In this document: positions 5,952 through 13,418 of the stretch, one piece after another | Layout of the letters: each line of letters opens with the position of its first letter | Numbering within the stretch: position 1 is the stretch's first letter | From: Phycisphaerales bacterium | GTDB lineage: Bacteria; Planctomycetota; Phycisphaerae; Phycisphaerales; SM1A02 | Direction: 5' to 3' | Length of the DNA: 64,000 bases | Assembly: GCA_022446795.1 (NCBI GenBank) | Contig: JAKVBX010000015.1 | Coordinates: forward strand, 84,855 to 148,854 | The notes under the pieces: model-generated | The model's input: only the letters and a program-made list of their open reading frames with translations | Told to the model about the DNA's origin: nothing | The model's database searches: none | Program-made: the position numbers and the translations under genes

Positions 5952-7277
5952 ATGTCCACCGCCACCACATCAACCGACCTGCGGATCGATCCGGAACTGG
6001 TCCCCATCCGGGACCGCGTCGAGGCCGGCGAGCGGCTGTCCGCGGAGGATGGCCTGACGCTGCTGCGGACATCGGACGTCTGGACGGTGTGCCGGCTTGC
6101 GGACCAGGTGCGACGGCGGATGCATGGGTTGACCACCTGGTACAACGTCAACAAGCACATCAACTACTCGAACATCTGTGCCCTGTCCTGCACCTTCTGC
6201 TCCTTCCATCGCAAGAAGGACCAGGACGGTGCCTACCAGCACTCGCTGGATGACATCCGCCGCGAGGCGCTCGGGGCCGTCGAGGCGGGCGCCACGGAAC
6301 TGCACATCGTCGGGGGGCTCCACCCCTGGCTGTCCTTCGATTACTACACCGACATGATGCGGACCATCCGCGAGCATGCTCCCTCGGTACACATCAAGGC
6401 CTTTACCGCCGTCGAGATCGTGCACCTGGCCAGGGTCTCGAAGCGTGGCCGCGATGGCTATGACGGCATCCTGTCCGTCCTGCGGGACCTGAAGGAAGCG
6501 GGCCTGGGCTCACTGCCCGGCGGTGGCGCCGAGGTCTTCGACGACCGCGTGCATGACGAGGCCTTCAAGGGGAAGATCCGGGGCGACGTCTGGCTGGACG
6601 TGCATCGTGCGGCGCATGAACTGGGCCTCAACTCCAACGCCACCATGCTCTATGGCCACGTCGAGCGCCTGGAGGAACGGATCAAGCACATGTTGATGCT
6701 CCGTCGCCAGCAGGATCGTGCGTTGGCTGCCTGGGCGGACGGCCAGGGCATTGTCGGCCAGGCGGATCCCGGCGACGGGGATGACCAGGCCATCGTCCTG
6801 ACGGGGCCCGACGATCGATATCCACGCGGACGCCTGCCGTACCTGGCGCCCGGTGAAGAAGACGAGGCGACGCAGGGGTGGTTCCAGACCATCGTTCCGC
6901 TGCCGTTCATTCCCGATGAGAGTGAACTCCAGCATCTCCCCGGGCCGATCGGCCTCGAGAACCTGCGGATGATCGCGGTCATGCGGCTCATGCTGGACAA
7001 CATTCCCCACATGAAGGCCTTCTGGATCATGCATACGCTCGACATGGCCCAGTTCATGCTGCAGAACGGTGCCAATGACATTGACGGCACCGTCGTGTGG
7101 TACGACATCACGAAGGTCGAAGGCGCCGGCACGCACCAGGAGACGACGGTCAAGGATCTCAAGCGGGCCATTCGCGAGGCGGGTTTCGTTCCACGCGAAC
7201 GCGACACGTTGTATCGCCCCGTGATCCGTGATGGACGGGACTGGCGCATCGAATCAGAACACGTCGAGGCCCGTTAG
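5952..7277 (+). CDS. mqnE: aminofutalosine synthase MqnE (radical SAM)
   Basis: MqnE joins SAM-derived adenosine to 3-[(1-carboxyvinyl)oxy]benzoate, the second committed step of the futalosine route to menaquinone. The 441-residue protein shows the radical SAM cluster motif CALSCTFC (Cys76, Cys80, Cys83), the MqnE-type segment YNVNKHINYSNIC before it, then HIVGGLHPWLSFDYY and PGGGAEVF. Relative to the family it carries about 45 extra, Asp/Gly-rich residues at roughly 247-293, between LMLRRQQD and GWFQTIVPLPF. The related MqnC is the main alternative but lacks this motif context. mqnB for the next step lies at the other end of the window. Its stop overlaps the stop of the convergent murJ fusion. 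Confidence 0.93.
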   Translation: MSTATTSTDLRIDPELVPIRDRVEAGERLSAEDGLTLLRTSDVWTVCRLADQVRRRMHGLTTWYNVNKHINYSNICALSCTFCSFHRKKDQDGAYQHSLDDIRREALGAVEAGATELHIVGGLHPWLSFDYYTDMMRTIREHAPSVHIKAFTAVEIVHLARVSKRGRDGYDGILSVLRDLKEAGLGSLPGGGAEVFDDRVHDEAFKGKIRGDVWLDVHRAAHELGLNSNATMLYGHVERLEERIKHMLMLRRQQDRALAAWADGQGIVGQADPGDGDDQAIVLTGPDDRYPRGRLPYLAPGEEDEATQGWFQTIVPLPFIPDESELQHLPGPIGLENLRMIAVMRLMLDNIPHMKAFWIMHTLDMAQFMLQNGANDIDGTVVWYDITKVEGAGTHQETTVKDLKRAIREAGFVPRERDTLYRPVIRDGRDWRIESEHVEAR

Positions 7278-9985
7278 CCGCCGTTGGGTGAGGCCCGACC
7301 GCCCAGGGCCCATCGCAGTTCCGGCATGCCAAGCAGCTTGGCGCCGCCGGCAATCACCAGTGTCCCGACCAGGACCAGCGTGGCCAGTTGCTGGACGTAC
7401 TGGATCCAATACCACTCGAACGGCATCAGCATCACCCCCTCCAGGGCGACGACCATCACCAGGGTCAGCGCGACTGTCTTCATGAACGACACGCGGGTCG
7501 ATCGGTCGAGCGGGAGGTCCACGTGTCGGCGCAGGTACCGCAGCAGGATCGTCAACTGAAGCGTGGCACAGATCGCGGTCGACCAGGCCAGGCCGGCTTC
7601 CCTCAATGGGGTCCAGATCAGCACGAGGTTCAGCACCAGGTTCAGGACCACGACCGAGATCGCGATCCGGACCGGCGTCATCGTGTCACCCTTGGCATAG
7701 AAGGCGCGGGTGACAACCTGGATCATGGAGTAGGCCCAGACGCAGGAGGCGTAGCCCAGCAGGACGAAGGCCACCCGGCCCGTGTCGCTGCTGCTGAAGG
7801 CGCCGCCCTGCAGGATCGTCGCGGTCAACGGCCGCGCGACGATCATGAGTCCGAGGCTGGCGGGGAAGCCGATGAAGAACACGAGTCGCAGTCCGCGCCG
7901 GACCATGTCGCTGAAGGCCGGCCGATCGTCCGCCAGGCGTGAGAGCATGGGGTAGATCGCGGTGGCAACGGCAATCCCGAAGACCCCCAGTGGAAACTGG
8001 TAAAGCCGCTGGGCGAAGTTCAGCACCGCCATGGCATGTTCATCCAGGGGCCAGGTCAGGTCGAAGAACTGCCGCGAACCACGGTAGTTGGCGTAGCTGG
8101 CGATCAGCCCGTCGATGAGCGTGTTCACCTGGAGCACGCCGAGCCCGAGGATCATGGGGCCGGCCTTGCGGAACATCTCGCGGACATGGTCGCGGGCGCC
8201 ACTGAGCCGAATACCGATCTTCTCGTGGCTGCGCAAGGCGATCCAAGACCACGCCACCTGGATCAGTCCGGCGAGGACGACGGCGATGGACATCGCTTCG
8301 ACCAGCATGAGCCGGCTGTCGCTCGATTCGAGTCCGAAGACGGTGTAGCCGATGATCGCGGCGGCCGTGATGGTGGCATTCAGCACGATGGGAGCGGCAG
8401 CCGTGGGGCCGAATCGACCATGCACCTGGAGCATGGCGCCCAGGATGGCGACCACGCACACCAGTGGCGCATAGGGCAGCATGATCATCAGGAGCCAGAG
8501 CGCCGGACCTGGATCGGTCATCATGGCGGAGATCGCGACAACGATCAGTTCGGCGATGGCGACGAGCACACCCGTGATCACCAGCACGATGCCCATGGTC
8601 GCCGAGGCCAGTTGCCGCGCGATGACAGGGTCCTCGCGATTGAGCTTCTCGTAGGTGGGCAGGAAGGCCGCGGCCAGGGCGCCTTCACCGAAGAGCCGAC
8701 GGAACAGGTTGGGAACAAGGAAGGCGAAGTAGTAGGAACTCAGGAGCGCGTCGGTTCCCAGGATGCGGCTGAGCACGGCTTCGCGGGCGAGCCCGGTCAC
8801 CCGGCTGACGGCCGTGATTGACATCACGGTCCGGGCGTGACGTTCGAAGTGCACCTCGTCCGCCCGTTGGGCGTTCTGCCAGTCCATGACCATGCGGGTG
8901 CACTCGGGGCATCGGCGCAGGGCGGCCTGTGATGGCGCGCCGCTCAGGTCAAAGGTGCAGGCGGGACAGGTCCAGCCCATTCTCGTGACCTTGCGACTGG
9001 TCAGTCCGGCAATGATGGCGGTCGCCGCTGCGGCACCGATGGCGGCGCCAAGCAGGAACAGTGGCAGCTCGATCGTCTTTGCGAAGGTGGGTGGCGTGGA
9101 CTGGAGAATCAACTCACCCAGTGAGATCCAGCCCACGGCGACAACCAGGAAGCAGGCGAGTCCCAGGATGAACCGGGGCGTGATGGACAGGACCGTGGGC
9201 GGTGTGACCAGTGGCTCCCACTGCGCCCCCCATCCATAGCTGCTGCACGTGGGGCAGGTCACGCCGCCATGCTCGTCGGCCGTGTCCAGGGAGAGTGGTT
9301 CACCGCAGTCCAGGCATGGCGTCTCTTCTCGCAGCCGGGTCGCCGCGGCCCGGAAGGGAGCGGTCAGCAGCAGAAGGCCGATGCTCACCGTGACCGCGAG
9401 ACAACCCAGGAACAGCGACTGGACATAGGTTCCCGCCCAGGCCATCGGAGGCCAGTACTCCGCGAGTGTCCAGGGGACGAAGAACAGGATGAGAAAGGCG
9501 ATCGAGGGAATGAATATCAGGCGAAGACCGACCCGACGATCGGCCACCACCTGGTCCATGAGGTAGTGGAATCGGCGGCGGCTGGCCCGCAGCGGGGTCG
9601 ATCCCCATGGGGAGAGCACGAAGATCAGGCTCGTGGCCGTGGCCACGCCCATCCATCCGGCGATCATGTCATCCAGGGCAATGACCCGTCCCGGGCCGGC
9701 CAACTGCTGGGTCCACTCGTCGATCGGAATCCAGACGCTGACGGCCGCGGGCACCAGCCAGGCCAGGGGGATCAATCTTGATCGCCAGAGCAGGAGCGTG
9801 AGAATCCCGAAGGCGAAGAAGTGGATCAACTTGTCCGGCAGAACCGAGCCCTGTCCGGTCAAGTCGGTGCTGGGCAGGTGGGTGCCGATGGTCAGCAGCA
9901 CGAAGTAGACCAAGAACAACAACCGCCAGGGCCTGGCGACCTGGGCGAGGTGCGTGCTGCGGGGTTTTCTAGGCGGACTCGACAC
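7274..9985 (-). CDS. murJ: VanZ-zinc ribbon-MurJ fusion, probable lipid II flippase
   Basis: One uninterrupted 903-residue frame joins several parts. Residues 20-125 are a VanZ-like membrane domain with DKLIHFFAFG and DEWTQQLAGPGR. More membrane segments follow, with a zinc ribbon (Cys224, Cys227, Cys244, Cys247). A second ribbon has Cys340, Cys343, Cys359, Cys362. Residues about 383-903 are a full MurJ/MviN flippase, beginning TAVSRVTGLAREAVLSRILG and containing PNLFRRLFGEGALAAAFLP; MurJ moves lipid II across the inner membrane for peptidoglycan synthesis. The start is a GTG that overlaps the end of parA by 17 bp, so coupling to parA is likely. An internal ATG at 8885-8887 just before the MurJ part has no ribosome site, so separate translation seems unlikely. 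Confidence 0.88.
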   Translation of the reverse strand: MSSPPRKPRSTHLAQVARPWRLLFLVYFVLLTIGTHLPSTDLTGQGSVLPDKLIHFFAFGILTLLLWRSRLIPLAWLVPAAVSVWIPIDEWTQQLAGPGRVIALDDMIAGWMGVATATSLIFVLSPWGSTPLRASRRRFHYLMDQVVADRRVGLRLIFIPSIAFLILFFVPWTLAEYWPPMAWAGTYVQSLFLGCLAVTVSIGLLLLTAPFRAAATRLREETPCLDCGEPLSLDTADEHGGVTCPTCSSYGWGAQWEPLVTPPTVLSITPRFILGLACFLVVAVGWISLGELILQSTPPTFAKTIELPLFLLGAAIGAAAATAIIAGLTSRKVTRMGWTCPACTFDLSGAPSQAALRRCPECTRMVMDWQNAQRADEVHFERHARTVMSITAVSRVTGLAREAVLSRILGTDALLSSYYFAFLVPNLFRRLFGEGALAAAFLPTYEKLNREDPVIARQLASATMGIVLVITGVLVAIAELIVVAISAMMTDPGPALWLLMIMLPYAPLVCVVAILGAMLQVHGRFGPTAAAPIVLNATITAAAIIGYTVFGLESSDSRLMLVEAMSIAVVLAGLIQVAWSWIALRSHEKIGIRLSGARDHVREMFRKAGPMILGLGVLQVNTLIDGLIASYANYRGSRQFFDLTWPLDEHAMAVLNFAQRLYQFPLGVFGIAVATAIYPMLSRLADDRPAFSDMVRRGLRLVFFIGFPASLGLMIVARPLTATILQGGAFSSSDTGRVAFVLLGYASCVWAYSMIQVVTRAFYAKGDTMTPVRIAISVVVLNLVLNLVLIWTPLREAGLAWSTAICATLQLTILLRYLRRHVDLPLDRSTRVSFMKTVALTLVMVVALEGVMLMPFEWYWIQYVQQLATLVLVGTLVIAGGAKLLGMPELRWALGGRASPNGG

Positions 9986-10886
9986 GATCTCGGTCGGAAC
10001 CCGTGGTCTCGCCGGGCGTGACCACGCATGGCGGCTCTTCTTCCGCCTGGACCGTGGTGGTGGGTGTCACCCAACCAGCCATGACATCAGCGGCAAGCTT
10101 GCGATAGTCGCGGGCGCCGTGGCAGTCCGATTCGTATTGGAAAATCGTCTGTCCGAAGCTGGGCGCCTCGGCCAGCTTGATGTTGCGTCGAATGGGTGGT
10201 TGCAGCACGCGGCAGGCACGCCACGGGACGTCCTGGTCCCTCGACGAGGTGATGAAGCTTTCGAGGTCGGACACCACTTCGCGGGCCAGCATCGTCTGCC
10301 GCTCATGCATGCAGAGGATGATCCCGGTGACCTGGAGGTCGGGGTTCACCGAACTGCACACCATGCCGATGGTCTCCAGCAGCTTGCCGACGCCCTGTAG
10401 CGCCAGGAAGTGCGCCTGCATCGGGACGAACACCTCGGTGGCCATGGCCAGTGCATTGAGCGTCAGCAACCCGAGGCTGGGTGGGCAGTCGATCAGGACG
10501 ACGTCATATCTCGACAGGATCCCGTCCAACCGCGTCCGCAGGATCTCGTTGCGGTCGGCGACGTCCGCCAACTCGGATTCGGCGGCGGCGAGGTCCGTCT
10601 CGGCGGCGATGGCATCGAGATTGTCATCAACGCGGATCACGGTGTCGGAGACCGCGCATGACTCATCCACGAGAATGTCGTACACGCTTCGTTCGATGGT
10701 GGTGGCATCGACCCCCAGGTGCAGGCTCATGTGGGCCTGCGGGTCGAGATCAATCATCAGCACGCGTTGTCCGGCTTCGGACAATGCAGCACCGAGATTC
10801 ACGGCGGAGGTCGTCTTGCCTACGCCGCCCTTCTGGTTGATGACCGCTACGATCCGCGGTCCACGCCTCCCTGCGTCACTCACCAT
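9969..10886 (-). CDS. parA: ParA/Soj chromosome-partitioning ATPase
   Basis: The 305-residue protein has the deviant Walker A motif of ParA, NQKGGVGKTT (signature Lys19 and Lys24), Walker A' DLDPQAHMSLHLG, and DVVLIDCPPSLGLLT as Walker B. ParA binds DNA non-specifically and drives movement of ParB-parS complexes. The ATG at 10884-10886 places the motif near the N terminus; no close ribosome site is present. A C-terminal tail of about 40 acidic/Thr-rich residues extends beyond the usual ~260. It is not next to parB, which lies 12.6 kb away with its parS. It overlaps the MurJ fusion downstream and is divergent from recO (78 bp gap). MinD-like proteins are excluded by the ParA-type motifs and lack of an amphipathic tail. 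Confidence 0.92.
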   Translation of the reverse strand: MVSDAGRRGPRIVAVINQKGGVGKTTSAVNLGAALSEAGQRVLMIDLDPQAHMSLHLGVDATTIERSVYDILVDESCAVSDTVIRVDDNLDAIAAETDLAAAESELADVADRNEILRTRLDGILSRYDVVLIDCPPSLGLLTLNALAMATEVFVPMQAHFLALQGVGKLLETIGMVCSSVNPDLQVTGIILCMHERQTMLAREVVSDLESFITSSRDQDVPWRACRVLQPPIRRNIKLAEAPSFGQTIFQYESDCHGARDYRKLAADVMAGWVTPTTTVQAEEEPPCVVTPGETTGSDRDRVESA

Positions 10887-10964
10887 GCTGTTCACTATAT
10901 CGGTCCTGGCCGGCAAAATGCGCCCGTTTCGAGTTGCCCACGGGGCGCTGTTAGCATCCTGACA

Positions 10965-11705
10965 GTGCCGACGATCACCGACACCGCGATCTGCCTGCGA
11001 CGCTGGGACTACTCGGAGACCTCCCAGACCGTGAGCCTGCTGACCGAGTCCCATGGCCTCCTGCGAGGCCTGGCGAAGGGGTCCAAGCGGGCTGACGCCC
11101 GTTTCTCGGGGGGATTTGATCCCCTGACCCGGGGCCAGATCACGCTGATCGTGAAGGCGGGCCGGGATCTGTCGACCATCACCGAATGGCATCTTTCGGA
11201 GGTCTACTGGGCCTCTCGACAGCACCTGGTCGCCAATCGAGCCGGGATCTACATGGTGGATCTGACCCATCGCATGCTGAAGGAGCAGGACCCCCATCCG
11301 GAGGTTTTCCAGGCCCTCGACTCCGCCCTGCAGGCGTGCCGGGATCGGGACCGAATCGGGATCGAGACCCTCATCTTCCAATGGCGGCTGATGGAGGTCT
11401 GCGGCTACCGACCGGAACTGGATCTCGATGCGGGAACCGGCCAGCCCCTCGACCCCACGGCGACAGTCATGCAGTTCAGTCCACTCCGCGGTGGCGTCGT
11501 CGAGACCAGCCAGGCCGCTGACGCGGTTCGCGTTCGTCGGGAGACGATCGACCTGCTCCGAAACGTGGCCGCGGGTGACTTCGTGGCGGCGGCGGCCAAT
11601 ATCGATGGCGTTCCGCGGGCCAATCGACTGCTCGCGGTCTGTTTCCGTTCGTTGCTGGGAGAAGCGCCGGAGTCCATGCACTGGGCCTTCGGTGACCTGG
11701 GGTAG
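10965..11705 (+). CDS. recO: RecO DNA repair protein
   Basis: RecO helps RecR load RecA onto SSB-coated single-stranded DNA. The 246-residue product starts at GTG 10965 with the family opening TDTAICLRRWDYSETSQTVS and LLTESHGLLRGLAKGSK, the OB-fold region. FSGGFDPLTRGQI and a helical C-terminal domain follow. In many RecO proteins a four-Cys zinc site lies after the 'GyxPxL' stretch; here CGYRPELDLDAGTGQPLDP has no CxxC, so the zinc site seems lost. No clear ribosome site precedes the GTG. It is divergent from parA. Confidence 0.88.
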   Translation: MPTITDTAICLRRWDYSETSQTVSLLTESHGLLRGLAKGSKRADARFSGGFDPLTRGQITLIVKAGRDLSTITEWHLSEVYWASRQHLVANRAGIYMVDLTHRMLKEQDPHPEVFQALDSALQACRDRDRIGIETLIFQWRLMEVCGYRPELDLDAGTGQPLDPTATVMQFSPLRGGVVETSQAADAVRVRRETIDLLRNVAAGDFVAAAANIDGVPRANRLLAVCFRSLLGEAPESMHWAFGDLG

Positions 11706-11900
11706 GTCGCCTCGGACGTTGGTCCATCGCATGGTCCGAGAACAACCGCCCTGTTCCATGGCCCATGGTTCTTTGTGTTGACCTTGGCGAGGTCACTCAT
11801 CGAACTGGATCGACGCTGGAAACCGGTCGATACCGGGACCGTGCGAGCGCCTCCGGTATGGAGACCGGGGGCGATACGGAGATACGAGGAGATCCGAGCC

Positions 11901-13418
11901 GTGCCTGAACTTCAGGTGGTCGAAGACATCTTGGCCGGGCATCGTCTGCCCACGCTGCCAGCTGTTGCGGCCGAGGTCCTGGACATGACCTCCGGCAGCG
12001 AGATCGACGTGCTTCGCATTGCCGATACGGTGCAACTGGACCAGGCCCTGGCGGCCAAGGTGCTGCGTACCGTCAACTCCAGCTACTACGGACTGTCTCG
12101 CCCGTGCGGCACCGTGCAGCAGGCGATGGTCTTCCTCGGCTTGAATACGGTCAAGACACTGGTCCTGAGCTTCAGCCTGGTCGACACGATCGATGGCCAG
12201 GGGCGTGACCGCCTGGGCTTCGACTATGGCGACTATTGGCGACGGTCCATTCACACCGCGGTGGCGGCTCGTGAACTGGCCCGCGCGCTGGGGACGTGGG
12301 ATCCGGAGGAGGCCTTCTTCGCCGGGTTGATGCAGGACTTCGGCATGATCGCGATGTACCACCGGTTCGGTCGGCAGTACGTCGAGGCGATCGAAGCGGT
12401 ACGTGGAGACCATCATGAGCTGTGCCGACTGGAACGCGATCTGTTCCAGGTGACGCACCCGGAAATCGGCGCATCGGTTGCCGAGCAGTGGAAGCTGCCC
12501 ATGGCGCAGGTCGCGGCGATTCGCTGGCATCATGATTCACAGTCCGCGGACGAGTGCTGGCAGGCGCCGGCTCGCCTCATTGATCTGGCCGGCGCGATGG
12601 CGGCGAGCCTGGTGATGACGCCTCATCATCGAGCGTTGAATGCCTACCGCCGACTGGCCCGGACATGGTTCGATATCGACGCGCGGGACGCGGAAAAGAT
12701 CCTCACGGCGACCGCTGAAGCGGCGAAGTCCGTGTCGTCCTTCTTCCGGGTTGATACCGGCAGCACGCCCGACGTGGAACGCCTGATGGCCCGGGCGGAG
12801 ACGCAGCTCTTCCAGCATCAGATCGACATGGGCCGGCACGCACGCGATCTGCAGCAACGCAACATCGACCTCACCGAGAAGATCAACCGGGACGGCCTCA
12901 CGGGGCTGCTGGATCGATCGGGATTCGACAACCAACTCACCCGGATGTTCAGCGAGACGGCCGAGTCCGGGCGATGCCTGTCGCTCCTGTTCTGCGATGC
13001 CGATCGCTTCAAGCCGATCAATGACCGCTATGGACATGCCGTTGGCGATGCCGTGCTCAAGCACTTCGCCGGCATCATGCAGGACCGGGCTCGTCGCGAG
13101 GACATCGTCTGCCGCTTCGGTGGTGACGAGTTCGTGCTGCTGCTCCCCGGCTGTGGCGAGGACGATGCCCGCCGCGTGGCCGAGGACATCCTCACCGTGC
13201 TCGCGTCGACACCACTTCGAGTGGAGTCCTCGGACTCACCGCATGAACCGACCGGTGACATGACACTGACCTCGAGCATGGGGCTGGCCACGTTTGATCC
13301 GGATGAAACCAATCCGATCGAATCACCCGAGATGCTCGTCACCTGTGCCGACCAGGCGATGTACGTCGCCAAGCGTCGCGGTGGAAATGGTGTTGCGACC
13401 TGGCGGGCCGCGGCCTAG
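11901..13418 (+). CDS. HDOD-GGDEF signalling protein, probable diguanylate cyclase
   Basis: The 505-residue protein starts at GTG 11901 with GAGGAG nine bases upstream. Residues about 5-215 are an HDOD domain, with LPTLPAVAAEVL, VLRTVNSSYYGL and an FAGLMQDFGMI segment. A helical linker leads to a GGDEF domain from about 328, with DGLTGLLDRSGF, CDADRFKPINDRYGHAVGD and an intact FGGDEF (407-411). An RxxD (398-401) just before it matches the product-inhibition I-site. It should therefore make cyclic di-GMP and be feedback-inhibited; what the HDOD domain senses is unknown. No membrane segment is visible, so it acts in the cytoplasm. It is followed closely by a convergent gene. Confidence 0.88.
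   Translation: MPELQVVEDILAGHRLPTLPAVAAEVLDMTSGSEIDVLRIADTVQLDQALAAKVLRTVNSSYYGLSRPCGTVQQAMVFLGLNTVKTLVLSFSLVDTIDGQGRDRLGFDYGDYWRRSIHTAVAARELARALGTWDPEEAFFAGLMQDFGMIAMYHRFGRQYVEAIEAVRGDHHELCRLERDLFQVTHPEIGASVAEQWKLPMAQVAAIRWHHDSQSADECWQAPARLIDLAGAMAASLVMTPHHRALNAYRRLARTWFDIDARDAEKILTATAEAAKSVSSFFRVDTGSTPDVERLMARAETQLFQHQIDMGRHARDLQQRNIDLTEKINRDGLTGLLDRSGFDNQLTRMFSETAESGRCLSLLFCDADRFKPINDRYGHAVGDAVLKHFAGIMQDRARREDIVCRFGGDEFVLLLPGCGEDDARRVAEDILTVLASTPLRVESSDSPHEPTGDMTLTSSMGLATFDPDETNPIESPEMLVTCADQAMYVAKRRGGNGVATWRAAA

Follow-up and report, generated by a model that had tools for sequence, protein, structure and literature searches.

The closest described relatives of the gene reported here come from a study of the VanZ/lipocone superfamily (Burroughs, Nicastro, and Aravind, eLife 2025; PMC12419801), according to which VanZ-1 and VanZ-2 occur beside the genes of lipid-carrier flippases (MviN_MATE clan) or in fusion with them. 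The superfamily pocket described there consists of His in helix 2 (H2), Glu in H3, and Asp in H4. The proposed targets of lipocone enzymes that bear this polar pocket are phosphate-linked polyprenyl head groups, with the membrane forms acting on lipids of the outer leaflet and VanZ acting on the head groups of flipped lipid II. TelC, a toxin domain of the same superfamily, cleaves lipid II, and a zinc-ribbon membrane protein is encoded beside Skillet-2, another lipocone (PMC12419801). We analyzed a 64,000-nucleotide (nt) stretch of DNA, referred to below as the window, from a Phycisphaerales bacterium (GTDB lineage Planctomycetota; Phycisphaerae; Phycisphaerales; SM1A02; contig JAKVBX010000015.1, positions 84,855 to 148,854). 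The window contains a minus-strand gene whose single frame joins a VanZ-like domain, two putative zinc ribbons, and the lipid II flippase MurJ (Table 1). A reading of the window from its letters alone (here, the sequence-only reading) had known of no described example of this architecture, a statement that no longer holds, as VanZ-flippase fusions have already been reported in general terms (PMC12419801). The gene shares the VanZ-flippase linkage and fusion with those cases and is a ribbon-bearing variant of that association. New here are the two-ribbon fusion of a genus, the parA-vanZ-murJ gene order, the repeated occurrence of fusion, and the different picture at loci beyond the order. The main text of the 2025 article contains no match for "planctomyc" and, supplementary lists aside, names no ribbon-bearing VanZ-MurJ protein. 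No other VanZ-MurJ report was recognizable by title or by the start of its abstract in a search that lay outside subscription papers, preprints, and supplements.

Domain searches and the cysteine pattern bore out the single 903-residue frame, with its VanZ-like domain, two zinc ribbons, and complete MurJ, that the sequence-only reading had proposed, and its question of whether the fusion is conserved can be answered in the affirmative for the genus. The frame is open from VanZ through the end of MurJ in all six genomes of the genus (i.e., the window's own genome and G001 to G005), and the fusion proteins of the five congeners are 54 to 61% identical to that of the window; the single stop counted in G002, G003, and G005 marks the natural end of the gene. 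The GTG start, which is preceded by ATC in all six members, lies within the upstream parA-like gene, so that the two genes overlap by 17 nt. In the stretch from the first cysteine of ribbon 2 to the MurJ motif F-E-x-x-A-R-T-V, three of the six members contain no ATG, GTG, or TTG, and the sole start common to all six (TV-M-S-M/I) lies behind this conserved motif, within the first helix of MurJ. The fusion is real rather than a frame artefact, because all six genomes have it and no conserved start that would yield a whole MurJ exists at the junction.

These data also bear on the idea that the frame is an assembly artefact, or that MurJ alone, produced by internal translation, is the working product, which we regard as highly improbable. 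The agreement of six assemblies on an open frame largely refutes the artefact. Internal translation draws some support from the candidate linker starts of three members; such starts are not recurrent in the genus, however, and the only one shared by all six would remove conserved residues. Shine-Dalgarno motifs are uninformative on this point, since they precede only 7 of the 48 candidate MurJ starts and are thus too rare to argue against it. Internal initiation is conceivable in single species, on the evidence of these codons, and is not conserved across the genus. Both outcomes that would have counted against the sequence-only reading were therefore seen in part: relatives do have separate genes, with no stop or frameshift in the window, and candidate starts do occur in the window's linker, with none of them conserved.

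The assignment of the C-terminal part to MurJ is unambiguous from profiles and structure comparison. This part matches Pfam PF03023 (E value, 1e-85) and passes the NCBIfam equivalog TIGR01695 (300.4 bits versus a cutoff of 235.55), and the solved structures closest to it are MurJ (e.g., PDB 6cc4 of Escherichia coli, 9ukv, and 5t77). It is like these proteins in its full length and in the three central-cavity arginines, R18, R24, and R270, which are essential in E. coli MurJ (PMC9973255) and are all retained as R395, R401, and R660; R18 belonged to the motif used for locating MurJ domains, and its conservation across the aligned rows is not independent there. The genus protein differs from them in its extra N-terminal ~378 residues. 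A simple hydropathy scan saw 12 helices in the MurJ part, compared with the 14 membrane helices of the family. The fused MurJ is the only one above the cutoff in a profile scan of the genome, and flipping of lipid II is its predicted activity. D39 of E. coli MurJ is Ser in the genus, as it is in all sampled members of families f2 and f3 and in some of f1 (family labels are ours). A link between the loss of D39 and fusion was ruled out; Ser or Gly is common in the unfused MurJ proteins of the order, and the fusions of family f5 keep Asp.

The N-terminal domain matches Pfam VanZ (PF04892; cutoff, 30.1 bits) over residues 52 to 123, with 23.8 bits for the whole protein, 25.9 bits for the N-terminal part alone, and 27.8 bits in a scan of the genome, in which it was the only VanZ match at an E value of 0.001. 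The homologous domain exceeds the cutoff in four of the five direct VanZ-MurJ fusions scanned (L062, L083, L075, and L104, with 38.5, 36.5, 33.9, and 32.4 bits, respectively), and the fifth, L067, falls below it (28.9 bits). NCBIfam NF037970 (cutoff, 20) did not match VanZ in the window or in the congener L031; the fused relative L067 (36.1) and the separate gene L038 (26.6) pass this model, and L044 (18.5) lies below its cutoff. Nine residues (H36, P38, D51, H55, E90, Q93, R100, D106, and G113) are invariant in all 37 aligned VanZ modules of the order, which include the six genus members and were picked by similarity to the window's module, and counterparts of H55, E90, Q93, R100, and D106 are kept in seven of seven direct VanZ-MurJ fusions. 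The polar pocket of the superfamily is present as H55, E90, and D106. Compared with the VanZ-2 signature (RKxxH in H2 and DxxxD in H4; PMC12419801), the genus has DKxxH in H2, with His as in VanZ-2, and D-x-x-A in H4, without the second Asp. The ratio of nonsynonymous to synonymous substitution rates (dN/dS) of VanZ is about 0.1 in two congener pairs, for which dS is near or above 1 in most regions.

Eight helices precede MurJ according to hydropathy. Both CxxC-CxxC ribbons are retained in all six genus members with a knuckle spacing (~15 to 20 residues) that fits a zinc ribbon, and at least four CxxC motifs occur in 17 of the 23 separate VanZ genes of the family. None of the named zinc-ribbon families exceeded its Pfam cutoff in our scans, and zinc binding is predicted from the cysteines. 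The spacer helices give dN/dS values of 0.24 to 0.43, and the ribbons give 0.10 to 0.24; the value for MurJ, taken from the first congener pair only, is 0.075. A model of the N-terminal part folded alone (predicted local distance difference test [pLDDT], 92.4; predicted template-modeling score [pTM], 0.90) has short strands at residues 241 to 252 and 356 to 367, within the ribbons. Helix alternation from the K/R-rich N-terminal tail places the ribbon loops and the MurJ N terminus on the predicted cytoplasmic side, together with the tail, and the E90-Q93-R100-D106 loop on the predicted outer face. Two further computations were set aside: a 132-row alignment intended for a second model of the whole fusion, in which VanZ rows were aligned onto MurJ, and a second fold comparison, whose best scores (Z 7.6 for MurJ, 6cc4, and, across the VanZ portion, Z 6.0 for LucB, 8fed) lie in a range that unrelated helical bundles can reach.

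A survey of 61 genomes of the order, which supplied 56 murJ loci, showed VanZ fused to MurJ in 15 and encoded upstream on the same strand in 29 (44 of 56 in total); 5 loci were uninformative because of contig ends, and 7 were without VanZ. The 29 upstream genes, with distances taken to the nearest possible murJ start, comprise 12 that overlap murJ by 4 to 11 nt, 4 at 0 to 60 nt, 12 at 76 to 1379 nt, and 1 undetermined case; L128, which is outside this count, also has VanZ and MurJ as separate genes, with an overlap of 8 nt. A parA relative lies upstream in 38 of the 44 linked loci, so that a partitioning-type ATPase (ParA) and wall-lipid export share gene order in these bacteria. In the family's other genera, a separate VanZ gene, mostly carrying ribbons, precedes murJ on the same strand at 21 of 26 loci and usually follows parA, and four of the remaining five loci are cut by contig ends. 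The longer of the relatives' separate VanZ genes align with the fusion up to residues ~363 to 373, and the separate MurJ genes mostly align from residue ~379. Since these genera mostly keep a separate VanZ gene upstream of murJ, usually behind parA, the gene order indicates that the genus fusion arose in place from parA-vanZ(-ribbons)-murJ.

Fusion is found in all six loci of the genus, in six of six of family f5, and in three of five of family f6, and at least eight further f6 fusions are among the loci listed from a search of 396 genomes of the class. The f2 genome G387 is also fused, with a linker that contains ATG. The direct VanZ-MurJ fusions of f5 and f6 have the same N-terminal VanZ, single frame, and active-site pattern as the genus protein, but those of f5 have a short linker without ribbons, and several f6 genomes (L102, L104, L099, L106, and L103) encode a tandem VanZ-VanZ-MurJ in one frame (844 to 910 amino acids) with a weaker second VanZ match. 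In a MurJ tree of 69 rows, built by a quick method, the genus nests in an otherwise unfused family, and f5 and f6 together form another clade. A single clade of genus, f5, and f6 (28 rows) was rejected on this quick tree (p-AU, 0.0005), and the fewest changes between fused and unfused states on the MurJ tree are six. By this phylogeny, the VanZ-MurJ fusion arose on at least two and probably three occasions, a count that the mixture of fused and unfused members in f6 makes inexact.

The control set comprised 40 MurJ loci, 20 of them from different orders of the class and 20 from elsewhere in the phylum. With a profile built from sequences of the order, VanZ was seen within ~3.5 kb of MurJ in none of these 40 loci, and an independent Pfam search located PF04892 elsewhere in the genomes of 36 of them (above the cutoff in 32). 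The closest VanZ-MurJ pair on one contig was ~86 kb apart (G112); where the two lie on different contigs, the distance is known only for the stretch read. The VanZ-MurJ linkage is special to this order in these samples. Outside the order, single frames with three VanZ matches each were observed at G627:C1:471168-472400 (1029 amino acids), G443:C1:5047964-5049175 (1441 amino acids), and G070:C64:19541-20800 (814 amino acids).

Gene order and repeated fusion are the points on which a neutral origin can be weighed, in which co-transcribed, often overlapping genes lost a stop in frame and VanZ and MurJ share nothing beyond transcript and membrane insertion. Neighboring overlapping genes are prone to fuse, some VanZ-MurJ pairs of f6 are unfused among fused relatives, and parA shares the gene order as well. 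This origin fits less well with fusion having happened repeatedly, with linkage at 44 of 56 loci in the order versus 0 of 40 outside it, and with the VanZ site and the two ribbons being kept throughout the genus, at a VanZ dN/dS near 0.1 in two pairs. We consider it possible and somewhat unlikely.

The interpretation that we favor, which we hold to be evenly poised between right and wrong, is a true gene fusion in which lipocone-type VanZ, ribbon spacer, and MurJ form one polypeptide and VanZ and MurJ act on the same lipid, as we infer. This polypeptide would have ~22 membrane helices, arranged as an N-terminal VanZ, a four-helix spacer with two cytoplasmic zinc ribbons, and MurJ. The lipid portal of MurJ is bordered by transmembrane helices 1 and 8 (TM1 and TM8; PMC9973255), and the N-terminal fusion would place VanZ tethered beside this portal, because portal-flanking TM1 comes right after the junction. 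On leaving MurJ, lipid II (or its carrier) may encounter VanZ in the outer leaflet, and VanZ would most likely act on or bind the phosphate-linked head group, tuning the flipped lipid II that is available. Binding or gating by VanZ would be as likely as catalysis, because cleavage at the exit of a flippase would be wasteful unless regulated. The ribbons would most likely be an element for docking or folding on the cytoplasmic side; for the coupling itself they are dispensable, as the direct VanZ-MurJ fusions that lack them show. The sequence-only reading is supported in part, in that conserved fusion, synteny, and predicted topology fit a working unit, for which the regulatory or substrate-delivery role that it suggested would be a candidate function. 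A stronger version, in which MurJ passes lipid II through the TM1/TM8 portal directly to an active VanZ site of the outer leaflet that cleaves or swaps the phosphate-linked head group while the cytoplasmic ribbons (possibly with ParA) set activity or position, is in our judgment unlikely; if it were true, VanZ would gain its first defined substrate.

Several observations weigh against the favored joint action of VanZ and MurJ. The window's VanZ match is below the Pfam cutoff of 30.1, and three congeners (L031, L033, and L034) have no Pfam VanZ match at an E value of 0.01. No solved structure is clearly like the module, the best Foldseek E values of 0.95 (PDB) and 1.8 (BFVD) both being meaningless. 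The model of the whole fusion was poor (6-row alignment; pLDDT, 50.9) and was not used, which leaves no model of VanZ packing on MurJ, and the ribbon 1 loop shows no K/R excess (4 K/R versus 8 D/E). Candidate starts in the linker are present in three of the six genus members (two ATGs and a GTG in the window, a TTG in L033, and a GTG in L035). Family f6 has both fused and unfused members, and the link between VanZ and MurJ is not obligatory, because 7 of the 56 loci have sufficient flank and no VanZ near murJ, and the 5 loci of family f4 with such flank are all among them. The literature examined contains no proof of a biochemical function for any VanZ protein. An essential role of MurJ cannot be assumed, because murJ is deletable in the planctomycete Planctopirus limnophila (PMC10632474).

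The cell-wall pathway is likely present in the window's own genome because of its two FtsW/RodA-type matches, three MraY-type transferase matches, and BacA. This inventory bears on a role of VanZ as a carrier-recycling partner that dephosphorylates or returns undecaprenyl (pyro)phosphate beside MurJ and so fills a missing step. The proposed action of VanZ-type lipocones on phosphate-linked polyprenyl head groups (PMC12419801) is consistent with such a role, as is the result that PAP2-type phosphatases were not found in the six genus genomes searched (G000 to G005). However, BacA/UppP was found in 79 of the 81 order genomes searched, including the window's own, DedA-type VTT proteins were found in 31 of 31 genomes searched, and a DUF368-type protein was found in 20 of 31, including the window's genome and all five of its congeners. 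Since these proteins are present, no recycling gap is visible, and we regard this role as distinctly unlikely. The narrower idea that VanZ is a necessary stand-in for a missing UppP is ruled out by the presence of BacA, and that of a replacement for a missing carrier translocase is weakened by the DedA-type and DUF368-type proteins.

A glycopeptide-type protection, in which VanZ beside MurJ would shield newly flipped lipid II from lipid-II-binding antibiotics, appears very unlikely. The two neighbors scanned are of the radical S-adenosylmethionine (SAM) and ParA types and give no pointer to resistance (no search for resistance genes was made), and an order-wide gene order is an odd setting for a resistance gene. 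Outer membranes, moreover, commonly exclude glycopeptides. Planctomycetes are described as diderm (PMC10632474), which adds to the case against protection, whereas the reduced binding of teicoplanin to cells that express VanZ (PMC7146870) speaks for it.

The convergent radical-SAM gene flanks the fusion throughout the genus (six of six members), and several further genera of the family share this flank. Near the parA-like gene, the plus strand has two open frames that we take, by eye, to encode an HDOD-GGDEF-like signaling protein (window positions 11775 to 13418) and a RecO-like protein (10719 to 11705).

Table 1. Features of the fusion gene and its immediate neighbors (window positions)
Feature	Position	Strand	Details or basis
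vanZ-zinc ribbon-murJ fusion gene, 903 amino acids	7274..9985	-	GTG start at 9985, stop at 7274-7276
VanZ-like domain, residues 17-125, four membrane helices; conserved H55, E90, Q93, R100, D106	9611..9937	-	Sub-threshold Pfam match, invariant columns, model, hydropathy
Helices 5-6 of N-terminal module, residues 126-218	9332..9610	-	Hydropathy, model; dN/dS 0.37 and 0.24 in two pairs
Putative zinc ribbon 1, residues 222-256, C224/C227/C244/C247	9218..9322	-	dN/dS 0.11 in one pair, saturated in the other
Helices 7-8 of N-terminal module, residues 257-335	8981..9217	-	Hydropathy, model; dN/dS 0.43 and 0.38 in two pairs
Putative zinc ribbon 2, residues 336-368, C340/C343/C359/C362	8882..8980	-	dN/dS 0.10 and 0.24 in two pairs
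Junction, residues 363-385	8831..8899	-	Alignment to separate VanZ and MurJ genes of relatives
MurJ, residues 379-903, with R395/R401/R660 (E. coli R18/R24/R270)	7277..8851	-	Profiles and structure comparison
parA-like gene, directly upstream	9969..10886	-	3' end overlaps fusion gene by 17 nt
Radical-SAM (CofH/MqnC-type) gene, convergent	5952..7277	+	Domain scan

VanZ proteins are widespread and are linked to glycopeptide resistance, and the fusion ties this poorly understood family to cell-wall lipid transport. With repeated fusion, and with a VanZ-murJ gene order that is common in this order and was seen at none of the 40 loci outside it, a shared lipid of VanZ and MurJ becomes a directly testable idea, and the fused proteins are natural constructs in which partner and substrate are already matched. 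The finding is also of relevance for the cell walls of planctomycetes, whose synthesis is unusual, as illustrated by the deletable murJ of P. limnophila (PMC10632474).

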